This document shows, in pieces, positions 31,891 through 38,725 of a stretch of 64,000 nt of DNA. The stretch covers positions 62,001 to 126,000 of the forward strand of contig NZ_KZ319290.1 in the NCBI RefSeq assembly GCF_002744755.1. The letters run 5' to 3'. The notes beneath the pieces were generated by a model. The model saw only the letters and a program-made list of their open reading frames with translations, searched no databases and had not been told where the DNA came from. How positions within the stretch are numbered: position 1 is the stretch's first letter; every line of letters begins with the position of its first letter. Position numbers and translations under genes: made by a program. The DNA comes from Leeuwenhoekiella nanhaiensis (GTDB lineage Bacteria > Bacteroidota > Bacteroidia > Flavobacteriales > Flavobacteriaceae).

Positions 31891-31975
31891 TTAATTTTTA
31901 TATCAATCGGGGAGTACTGATTTTGCGAAGGACTAGACCTTAATTCCTTAATCACCCTAACTAATACACTATACA

Positions 31976-35581: not shown

Positions 35582-36874
<1,293 letters not shown>

Positions 36875-36880
36875 CTCGTA

Positions 36881-36907
36881 AAACACCCCAATCGGGGTGT
36901 TTTTTTT
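36881..36907 (+). terminator. Rho-independent terminator of eno
   Basis: Stem AACACCCC / GGGGTGTT with loop AATC and an eight-base T-run (36900-36907), directly after the eno stop. Confidence 0.94.
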
Positions 36908-37109
36908 GCCTTTTAAGTTTCCATTTAAATAAAAGTCATAAGCTCGGTTTATTCTTGTAAAAAATTCTTTAGTTCATATTTAAACGATTAAGTGTATATT
37001 TTTTACGATGTGAAGTATTTTATTAAAAAGAAAAAGAGTACATTCGTACATCTCAAAAGATAATTCATTTTAGATTCTTTAACCCAACAGTATCTGTAAA
37101 CAGATCTGA

Positions 37110-37128
37110 AAATTTTGAAGTTGGGTGA
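37110..37128 (+). repeat. 19-base direct repeat, copy 1
   Basis: AAATTTTGAAGTTGGGTGA, identical to 37187-37205. Each copy is followed within a few bases by an intrinsic terminator, so the repeat marks a duplicated RNA 3' module. Confidence 0.9.
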
Positions 37129-37169
37129 AAGAGCGGTTCTGAAAACTGAAGTAAGTATCGCTCTTTTTT
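37128..37169 (+). terminator. Terminator of the first RNA unit
   Basis: Stem AAAGAGCG / CGCTCTTT (37128-37135 and 37159-37166) with a 23-base loop and a T-run to 37169. No coding gene precedes it on this strand after the eno terminator, which implies a non-coding transcript. Confidence 0.8.
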
Positions 37170-37186
37170 ATCCAAACACGGAATCT

Positions 37187-37205
37187 AAATTTTGAAGTTG
37201 GGTGA
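37187..37205 (+). repeat. 19-base direct repeat, copy 2
   Basis: Second exact copy of AAATTTTGAAGTTGGGTGA (copy 1 at 37110-37128). Confidence 0.9.
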
Positions 37206-37243
37206 GGGGTTTAACGATGCTTTGCAGCGTTGCCCCTTTTTTT
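37206..37243 (+). terminator. Terminator of the second RNA unit
   Basis: Outer stem GGGG / CCCC (37206-37209, 37233-37236) and inner stem AACG-A-TGC / GCA-G-CGTT with a 3-base loop, followed by seven T (37237-37243). Its sequence differs entirely from the first terminator although the preceding 19 bases are identical. Confidence 0.82.
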
Positions 37244-37363
37244 ATGTCCTAAATTTTTAGGTGTGATAGTTTCATTTTGATCGAATTTTAAAACAATACT
37301 TCCTAAATCCACAGTATTAGGCCTGATTTAAATATTTTTTAACCTTGTGGCAAGGCTTTAAAC

Positions 37364-37394
37364 TTTAATAATCGCCGCTATTTTCGTACTTTAG
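37364..37394 (+). promoter_or_regulatory. Likely gltA promoter
   Basis: TTTA (37364-37367), 19 bases, TACTTTAG (37387-37394): the Bacteroidetes pattern TTTG-N19-TAnnTTTG with G-to-A in the first box and TTAG for TTTG in the second. It places the start about 38 bases upstream of the gltA ATG, downstream of both RNA-unit terminators. Confidence 0.6.
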
Positions 37395-37438
37395 CGACTC
37401 TTGAATTTTTTGATAATCAGCTAAAAATATATTAGATA

Positions 37439-38725
37439 ATGGCAGATAATGCTAAACTTATTATAGGAGACAAATCCTATGAATTTCCAATCGTTGAAGG
37501 TTCTGAAAAAGAGCTTGCAATCGATATAGCTAGTCTTAGAGGAGTTACTGGTGGTTATACTACACTTGATCCTGGTTTTAAAAATACCGGTAGTTGTGAA
37601 AGCGCAATTACATTCCTAAATGGAGAAGAAGGTATTCTAAGATACCGCGGTTATGCTATTGAAGAACTTGCGGAAAAAGCCTCGTTCCTGGAGGTAACCT
37701 ACCTCTTGATTTTTGGCGAATTACCTACACGTGATCAGTTAGAAAAATTTCACAAAGACATAAAAGAAGAAAATCACGTTGATGAGGATATTAAGAAAAT
37801 CCTTAATGGTTTTCCTAAATCAGCACACCCTATGGGCGTGTTGGCCTCGTTAACATCTGCGCTTACTGCATTTAATCCGGATGCTGTAAATGTAGATTCT
37901 GAAGAAGATATGTATAATGCCATAGTGAAGCTTTTAGGTAAATTCCCGGTTTTAGTAGCCTGGACGATGCGCACTAAAATGAGCAAGCCACTTGACTATG
38001 GTGATGACAGCTTAAGCTACGTAGAGAACCTGCATAAAATGATGTTCTCTAAGCCTAACAGTGAGTATAAGCTTGATCCCGTCATTATTGAAGCTTTAGA
38101 TAAATTATTGATCCTTCACGCTGATCACGAGCAAAACTGCTCTACGTCCACTGTGCGTATTGTAGGTTCTTCTCACGCTGGTTTATTTGCTTCCATATCT
38201 GCAGGTATTTCTGCGTTGTGGGGCCCACTTCACGGTGGTGCAAACCAGGCTGTTATCGAAATGCTTGAAGGTATTAAAGCAGATGGTGGTGATACTAAAA
38301 AATATATGGCTAAAGCAAAAGACAAGGAAGATCCATTCCGTTTGATGGGCTTTGGTCACCGCGTATACAAGAACTTTGACCCGCGTGCAAAGATTATCAA
38401 GAAAGCCGCAGATGACGTATTAAATCAACTGGGTGTAGAAGATGAAGTTCTTGATATTGCTAAGGGACTTGAAAAGGAGGCTTTAGAAGACGACTACTTC
38501 GTAAAACGCAAGCTGTATCCAAACGTAGATTTCTATTCGGGAATTATTTACAGAGCTTTAGGAATACCTGTAGAAATGTTTACCGTAATGTTTGCGATGG
38601 GTCGCGTACCAGGATGGATTGCCCAGTGGCGCGAGATGCGTTTGCGTAAAGAGCCTATTGGTCGTCCGCGACAGGTTTATATAGGTGAAACGCTTCGATC
38701 TTTTAAACCGATGGAAGAGCGATAG
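37439..38725 (+). CDS. gltA: Citrate synthase, type II
   Basis: 428 residues. Condenses oxaloacetate and acetyl-CoA, the entry step of the TCA cycle. The N-terminal beta domain (1-50) marks the large type II form. Catalytic regions: LHADHEQNCSTSTVRIVGS, GPLHGGANQAVIEML with the catalytic His, GFGHRVYKNFDPRAKI with the second His, and NVDFYSGIIYRALGIP with the catalytic Asp. The gene is preceded by a structured non-coding region and followed by a modest terminator. Confidence 0.99.
   Translation: MADNAKLIIGDKSYEFPIVEGSEKELAIDIASLRGVTGGYTTLDPGFKNTGSCESAITFLNGEEGILRYRGYAIEELAEKASFLEVTYLLIFGELPTRDQLEKFHKDIKEENHVDEDIKKILNGFPKSAHPMGVLASLTSALTAFNPDAVNVDSEEDMYNAIVKLLGKFPVLVAWTMRTKMSKPLDYGDDSLSYVENLHKMMFSKPNSEYKLDPVIIEALDKLLILHADHEQNCSTSTVRIVGSSHAGLFASISAGISALWGPLHGGANQAVIEMLEGIKADGGDTKKYMAKAKDKEDPFRLMGFGHRVYKNFDPRAKIIKKAADDVLNQLGVEDEVLDIAKGLEKEALEDDYFVKRKLYPNVDFYSGIIYRALGIPVEMFTVMFAMGRVPGWIAQWREMRLRKEPIGRPRQVYIGETLRSFKPMEER

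Follow-up and report, generated by a model that had tools for sequence, protein, structure and literature searches.

The gap between the eno and gltA genes of Leeuwenhoekiella nanhaiensis carries, at positions 37069-37243 on the forward strand of the window (the whole 64,000-nucleotide stretch of DNA analysed here), what is, judged from its sequence, a real and clade-specific structured RNA, which the genomes searched show only in Leeuwenhoekiella, Dokdonia and a third genus. The reading that we prefer, and to which we give about an even chance of being right, is that the element is an independent gene for a small non-coding RNA, in which the motif is duplicated and self-paired and which probably works by base-pairing. 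The argument starts from what the genomes establish directly, namely the sequence itself, the covariation of its stems, the conservation of its motif, its distribution over the clade and the dispensability of its second unit.

The flanking genes, which we take from familiarity with their families to be eno and gltA, lie at 35585-36874 and 37439-38725. The eno gene is followed by its own terminator (36880-36903, with a T-run), after which comes the element, whose parts and surroundings are as follows.

36984-37016, forward strand: upstream block, ACGATTAAGTG with a similar ACGATGTGAAG 21 bases later; possible regulator site
37039-37046, forward strand: putative -7 promoter box TACATTCG, preceded by A-rich sequence; predicted start near 37051
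37069-37077, forward strand: 5' strand of the outer stem P1, TTTAGATTC, complementary to 37181-37189
37082-37088, forward strand: anti-motif ACCCAAC, pairing with motif copy 1 in a duplex test
37092-37105, forward strand: small hairpin ATCTG/CAGAT in the interval between anti-motif and motif copy 1 (predicted fold)
37118-37128, forward strand: motif copy 1, AAGTTGGGTGA; exact AAGTTGGGTRA in synteny-defined gaps
37128-37169, forward strand: terminator hairpin 1 and U-run; pairing in 15 orthologs
37181-37189, forward strand: 3' strand of the outer stem P1, GAATCTAAA; duplex test
37195-37205, forward strand: motif copy 2, AAGTTGGGTGA; exact copies in synteny-defined gaps
37206-37243, forward strand: terminator hairpin 2 and U-run; consensus terminator scan, pairing in 15 orthologs
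37388-37395, forward strand: putative gltA promoter box TACTTTAG, outside the element; TAnnTTNG match

The first-pass annotation of this DNA had described a 19-base repeat, each copy of which is followed by an intrinsic terminator, together with one upstream ACCCAAC able to pair with either copy, a 9-bp outer stem and no open frame, and every part of that description holds. The repeat is exact, base for base, at 37110-37128 and 37187-37205 (both AAATTTTGAAGTTGGGTGA), and its 16-base core TTTTGAAGTTGGGTGA has no other exact occurrence in the genome. A stem with a T-run follows each copy (at about 37128-37169 and 37206-37243), ACCCAAC appears with both partners in predicted folds, the outer strands TTTAGATTC and GAATCTAAA are complementary, and no open reading frame of at least 40 amino acids overlaps 37069-37243. 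A consensus terminator scan called only the second hairpin terminator-like, the first being skipped because its loop exceeds the 8 bases that the scan permits. Within that loop (37134-37158 and its Leeuwenhoekiella orthologs), TGAA...AGTA-like letters, which we presume to echo a bulged-G (loop E) module, are kept despite changes in the stem, with one locus (L010) departing from them. Ahead of the element, the first box of the upstream block, ACGATTAAGTG, is recognisable in eight of ten aligned Leeuwenhoekiella gaps; within the window, at up to two mismatches, its frequency is not above chance (6 found, 5.6 expected). The sole gathering-level Rfam match in the window lies at 31919-31953 and is to the S4-Flavobacteria ribosomal protein leader (RF03141), with a score of 36 bits where 35.2 is the cut-off.

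The predicted fold of 37045-37243 reaches -55.5 kcal/mol (z = -3.84), a stability equalled by none of 200 shuffled sequences, and that of 37069-37169 has z = -3.02, with one shuffle in 200 as stable. A covariance model of the double element built from Leeuwenhoekiella only (R1) finds all five Dokdonia loci, with E values from 3.7e-7 to 6.7e-12. For an alignment of 15 sequences covering both hairpins (A5), which was fitted to its structure and whose counts therefore lean that way, 97.4% of 310 cells are paired, both sides change in 12 of 21 pairs, and no shuffle out of 500 equals the alignment on any of five measures; when the partner is slid, pairing drops to 40-75%. Taken singly over the 15 orthologs, hairpin 1 has 97.3% of its cells paired and both-side changes in three of ten pairs, and hairpin 2 has both-side changes in nine of 11. 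Conservation of the paired bases in relatives had been named beforehand as a point on which the element could fall; the hairpins covary, and it stands. With two such covarying hairpins, each ending in a U-run, the element has the form of a short non-coding transcript that ends in an intrinsic terminator.

The outer stem is more restricted. The P1 duplex gives p ≤0.030 in ten of ten Leeuwenhoekiella and p < 0.05 in one of five Dokdonia, where local hairpins are predicted ahead of motif 2. In many Leeuwenhoekiella, P1 is predicted to reach into motif 2, so that the second motif would then have a partner of its own. Because RNAalifold, applied to alignments A2 and A3, pairs the motifs differently from the single-sequence folds, duplex tests were relied on instead.

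The motif AAGUUGGGURA is constant and its upstream partner is not. The partner strands read ACCCAAC, ACCUAAC, ACCUGAC, ACCCAGC, AUCCAAU, GCCCAGC, ACCUGGC, ACCCGGC and others, largely by way of G-U pairs, with GUUGGGU unchanged throughout. In each of 16 loci the duplex of anti-motif and motif 1 is more stable than that of a control window upstream; against shuffles, the per-locus p ranges from 0.002 to 0.387, and the Fisher p is 3e-8 for ten representatives that share ancestry. Were pairing within the RNA the only constraint, both strands would be expected to drift. That one strand stays fixed while the other tracks it through G-U pairs thus argues for a further, sequence-specific job of the fixed strand, which we infer to be either pairing with other RNAs or the binding of a protein. 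A conserved short recognition motif is also what one finds in trans-acting intergenic small RNAs. Between anti-motif and motif 1, 16 of the 18 Dokdonia-genus loci (L316-L333, except L322 and L332) carry the stretch GTTAGTGAATRAACA, for which the single locus of the third genus (L245) has GTTAGTGAAATG as a counterpart; none was seen in Leeuwenhoekiella.

If the element is a small RNA gene, its transcript would start near 37051 and run to terminator 1, a length of about 119 nt, and read-through to terminator 2 would yield about 193 nt. The working part would be AAGUUGGGURA, which adjoins each terminator stem and which the upstream anti-motif would hold in a G-U-tolerant helix. Most likely GUUGGGU(G/A)A would pair in trans with mRNAs bearing ACCCAAC-like sites, the anti-motif would limit or time the exposure of the motif, and the second unit would serve as a second copy of the pairing site. 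A bolder form of this proposal is a self-masked, tandem-seed RNA, in which an invariant 11-nt seed has been duplicated along with its terminator and given its own anti-seeds, such that termination at the first or the second terminator would decide if one seed or two are made, and which of these lie exposed. If true, it would be a dose-setting RNA of a new kind at the glycolysis/TCA boundary in marine flavobacteria, and we give it little credence.

A search for target mRNAs turned up no enrichment of complementary sites. Across six genomes, YACCCAACTT occurs at 143 sites, 12 of which are the element's own copies; the 131 outside the element compare with 127 for a reversed-pattern control, so the 10-mer complement is not enriched in these genomes, G007 alone being high (31 vs 17). 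The 80 complementary sites examined divide into 33 sense-coding, 30 antisense and 17 intergenic. In 15 of 18 genomes a 15-mer complement is commoner than its control, and with one mismatch allowed it occurs 164 times in carriers (the element's 31 copies removed) as against 107 in the control; two non-carriers give 22 vs 15, the same ratio, and an excess specific to carriers was not seen. In the window genome, none of 14 near-perfect 15-mer sites falls just before a start codon (two were judged by eye), and among the sites examined none is conserved across the clade, the best being present in five of 13 Leeuwenhoekiella. In single species, some sites do fall immediately ahead of a start codon: that of a leucine-rich-repeat-like gene (window genome), that of pgi (a Dokdonia) and, in one Leeuwenhoekiella genome (G005), those of an oxidoreductase-like and a thioredoxin-like gene. 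These names, like that of the peroxiredoxin-like gene below, are presumed from the families to which the genes seem to belong. The Dokdonia site, TACCCAACTT, found in one genome, precedes the start of pgi, like eno a gene of glycolysis, by 14 nt (L153, G232:C12:311449-313858).

The best target lead, and no more than a lead, comes from the gap between a peroxiredoxin-like and a thioredoxin-like gene, where CUUUCACCCAACUUCA is found in four Leeuwenhoekiella genomes (G003, G005, G009, G010) and, with one base different, in a fifth (G011), offering a 16-17-nt complement to the motif in five species. L. marinoflava has this site. It is held at that level because the 17-nt match has a BLAST E value of 0.20-0.24 per genome. 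At these five loci (L225-L229), a possible hairpin TTTCTTT...AAAGAAA carries CACCCAACTTCA in its loop; the corresponding gap in other Leeuwenhoekiella has other hairpins or none. As a general target the thioredoxin-like gene was rejected: the site is missing from eight of 13 Leeuwenhoekiella, the window genome included, and from all three Dokdonia loci read, one of which holds only 66 upstream bases.

The same lack of enrichment in complementary sites speaks for the strongest alternative, in which AAGUUGGGURA beside its stem is a protein-binding site and the RNA a decoy or scaffold whose two sites raise avidity. A motif that is fixed while its partner strand varies, each copy abutting a stem in similar context, is what such a protein site would look like. 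On the other hand, no candidate protein emerged, the window genome having no match to RRM_1 (the one family searched), and the long complement present in five genomes is better suited to an RNA partner. We consider protein binding unlikely, if still the alternative most deserving of attention.

For the distribution of the element we rely on synteny alone, since a two-motif pattern search is biased towards a constant motif; gltA was searched for and the preceding gap read, the motif not being used as a query. The constancy of the motif in loci L039-L081 was imposed by the search pattern, and unbiased counts are those of the synteny surveys, with the proviso that loci within one genus are not independent. 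Of 31 eno-gltA gaps surveyed across the clade, 29 contain the element (ten of 12 in Leeuwenhoekiella, 18 of 18 in the Dokdonia genus and one of a third genus), and together these hold 53 exact copies of AAGTTGGGTRA. Motif 1 is exact in 18 of 18 Dokdonia-genus and ten of 12 Leeuwenhoekiella gaps, and motif 2 in 14 of 18 and ten of 12, respectively. The ten Leeuwenhoekiella gaps have both units, and the two remaining ones (G001 and G008) have neither; elsewhere in these two genomes R1 gave only weak matches (E ≥0.046), and in G012, which is 81% complete, none.

The second unit is dispensable, being altered or lost in four of the 18 Dokdonia-genus gaps. It has one base changed (AAGTTGGATAA) with its hairpin intact in L330, is degenerate (AAGCTGGGTAA) with a broken, decayed terminator hairpin in L324, and is gone from L320 and L325, which keep unit 1 alone; L324 and L330 look like second units caught in mid-decay. 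In the third genus (G216, locus L245), the eno-gltA gap contains just one unit. Such single-unit forms bear out the earlier suggestion that a motif-plus-terminator module was partially duplicated, and since unit 1 alone survives in some Dokdonia, the basic function would need one motif and one terminator.

Searches of other kinds return the same clade. When 40 relatives were searched at the DNA level, the element came up between eno and gltA in seven other Leeuwenhoekiella (E ≤7.7e-26) as well as in G007 (E 3.1e-5) and G006 (E 0.07). The exact two-motif pattern hit 43 contigs of the named genome collection, 13 of them Leeuwenhoekiella- or Dokdonia-like with eno and/or gltA at the match; the other 30 were dismissed by eye as tandem repeats or chance, among them L041, where gltA is matched only in part and at a long distance from the pattern. 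In three of 299 family genomes the pattern also occurs. Among 397 sampled family genomes, R1 matched 18 at E ≤0.1, of which five are real: the window genome (G000), G003, G009, the Dokdonia G232 and the third-genus G216. The fetched loci of the remaining 13, and of a second match in G003, had neither eno nor gltA, and no further eno-gltA-syntenic case was found in this sample. A single-unit model (R2) proved too permissive, matching 300 of the 397 genomes at E ≤0.3; within the sample, the five carriers have nine units, all scoring at least 41.8 bits, against at most 32.4 outside the clade, where the 15 best loci have neither eno nor gltA and look like chance. Because some true units score only 27.8-31.8 in R2, and a decayed unit 20.3, diverged single units elsewhere could be missed.

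In 18 loci from other genera, eno lies directly upstream of gltA in 13, the gap being 154-304 bases long at 11 of these and about 1 kb at the other two, and AAGTTGGGTRA is absent from all 18; since these genera keep the gene pair without the element, the pair is older than the element. One such locus (L105) has two TTGGGT words 139 bases apart and no model match. A GltA tree of 36 rows, rooted for drawing only, places the carriers in one branch (support 99/97), inside which G001 and G008 are sisters (91/82). The simplest history would be one gain and one loss.

The comparison also bears on the possibility of a cis-acting leader or attenuator of gltA, in which tandem terminators are switched by alternative pairing and read-through continues into gltA. 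The element does lie upstream of gltA and on its strand in all 29 carriers read, and alternative pairings are predicted in the window RNA: in the short RNA, ACCCAAC would pair with motif 1, and in the full-length RNA with motif 2, leaving motif 1 to AUCCAAAC behind the first U-run. The CCAA strand that follows the first U-run is present in nine of ten Leeuwenhoekiella, but in none of the 18 Dokdonia-genus loci, so that alternative pairing is possible for one genus and not general. The first-pass annotation had offered a switch between two stop points as one of its readings; the pairings it envisaged could form in Leeuwenhoekiella, whereas a choice between two stop points is not the general function, because unit 2 is altered or lost in four Dokdonia-genus genomes and the third genus has a single unit. 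The leader reading would further call for a fairly fixed placement, but the last exact motif lies anywhere from 156 to 596 bases before the gltA start in the 29 carriers. Finally, a TAnnTTNG box, presumably a promoter, stands within 110 bases before gltA whether or not the element is there (raw counts: 11 of 12 loci in Leeuwenhoekiella, 18 of 18 in the Dokdonia genus and 12 of 13 elsewhere that have eno upstream). We regard a gltA leader as improbable. The earlier preference for an independent small RNA over a leader is supported: because the spacing to gltA varies and other genera keep eno-gltA without the element, mostly across a short gap, an independent gene is favoured on balance.

Such a gene would need a promoter of its own. 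The box TACATTCG at 37039-37046 resembles the TAnnTTTG consensus that the available portion of a study of Flavobacterium psychrophilum quotes (PMC9723704). It is a weakly supported candidate, an AAAAAG..TAnnTT box being found by strict pattern in only six of 28 two-genus loci.

If each unit gave a separate small RNA, with its own start and a role distinct from the other's, that would account for the motif and terminator in each unit and for units that occur singly, as in L320, L325 and L245. However, an unsystematic look picked out no separate promoter between the units, and the outer stem joins both of them in Leeuwenhoekiella; we think this very improbable. A coding or leader-peptide gene is scarcely credible, for although 16 of the 18 Dokdonia-genus loci have a frame that opens at GTGAAT, within the loop ahead of motif 1, and in several it runs through the motif, this frame stops at varying places 5 to 37 residues on and is absent from Leeuwenhoekiella, the window element has no frame of 40 amino acids or more, and the stems vary by compensating pairs.

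The small-RNA reading thus draws its support from hairpins that covary, a motif fixed while its partner changes and the retention of unit 1; from presence in 29 of 31 gaps on a single carrier branch with variable spacing to gltA; and from the 16-17-nt complement before a thioredoxin-like gene in five Leeuwenhoekiella. It is weakened by complements that are not enriched, the lack of a clade-wide target, a weak promoter box, a motif predicted to be paired, unlike a typical open seed, and the lack of an RRM_1 protein.

In our judgment the RNA is new as a family and ordinary as a kind, with its masking and duplication of moderate interest. Our searches of the open-licence literature brought up few small RNAs of marine Flavobacteriaceae, none from Leeuwenhoekiella or Dokdonia, and no report of this one. 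What is gained is a defined RNA family in cultured species, with a fixed motif, and with natural losses (G001, G008) and single-unit variants (L320, L325, L245) that offer controls for testing the seed, the masking and the duplication one by one. The cultured species include L. blandensis MED217, which has the element (L043), and D. sinensis (L059).

No family of Rfam 15 matches the element or 13 related loci; 19 permissive matches were rejected as lying far below gathering scores. RNAs that repeat a short motif and pair with mRNAs or titrate a protein include LhrC of Listeria and the CsrB family. The element shares the repetition and differs in having every repeat directly against a terminator of its own, with an anti-motif upstream. 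Flavo-1 (RF01705), which the earlier annotation had singled out for an Rfam check and which appears among the RNA motifs in the available part of PMC2864571, is likewise a candidate non-coding RNA of Bacteroidetes; the element differs in having no Rfam match to it, Flavo-1 finding nothing in the window, at E ≤10 in 36870-37445, or in the 13 related loci.

FopS and GibS of Bacteroides thetaiotaomicron, small RNAs that are also of the Bacteroidota, as described in the accessible text of PMC11697453 combine a short conserved seed with a terminator hairpin, GibS having two seeds. According to the same text, the FopS seed sits in a single-stranded 5' stretch, whereas the motifs of the element are 3', beside its terminators and predicted to be paired; FopS belongs to a 14-member paralogous family, whereas the element has one locus per genome read; and FopS is bound by RbpB, whereas a search of the window genome for an RRM_1 protein like RbpB came back empty, with a Bacteroides control positive. 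The nearest studied small RNA of the Flavobacteriaceae that we met in the literature is, by description, Rfp18 of F. psychrophilum, presented in the available portion of PMC9723704 as a structured intergenic small RNA thought to pair with mRNAs. Compared by description only, the two differ in range, Rfp18 being reported there as conserved in Flavobacterium and the element being confined to its own clade in the genomes searched.
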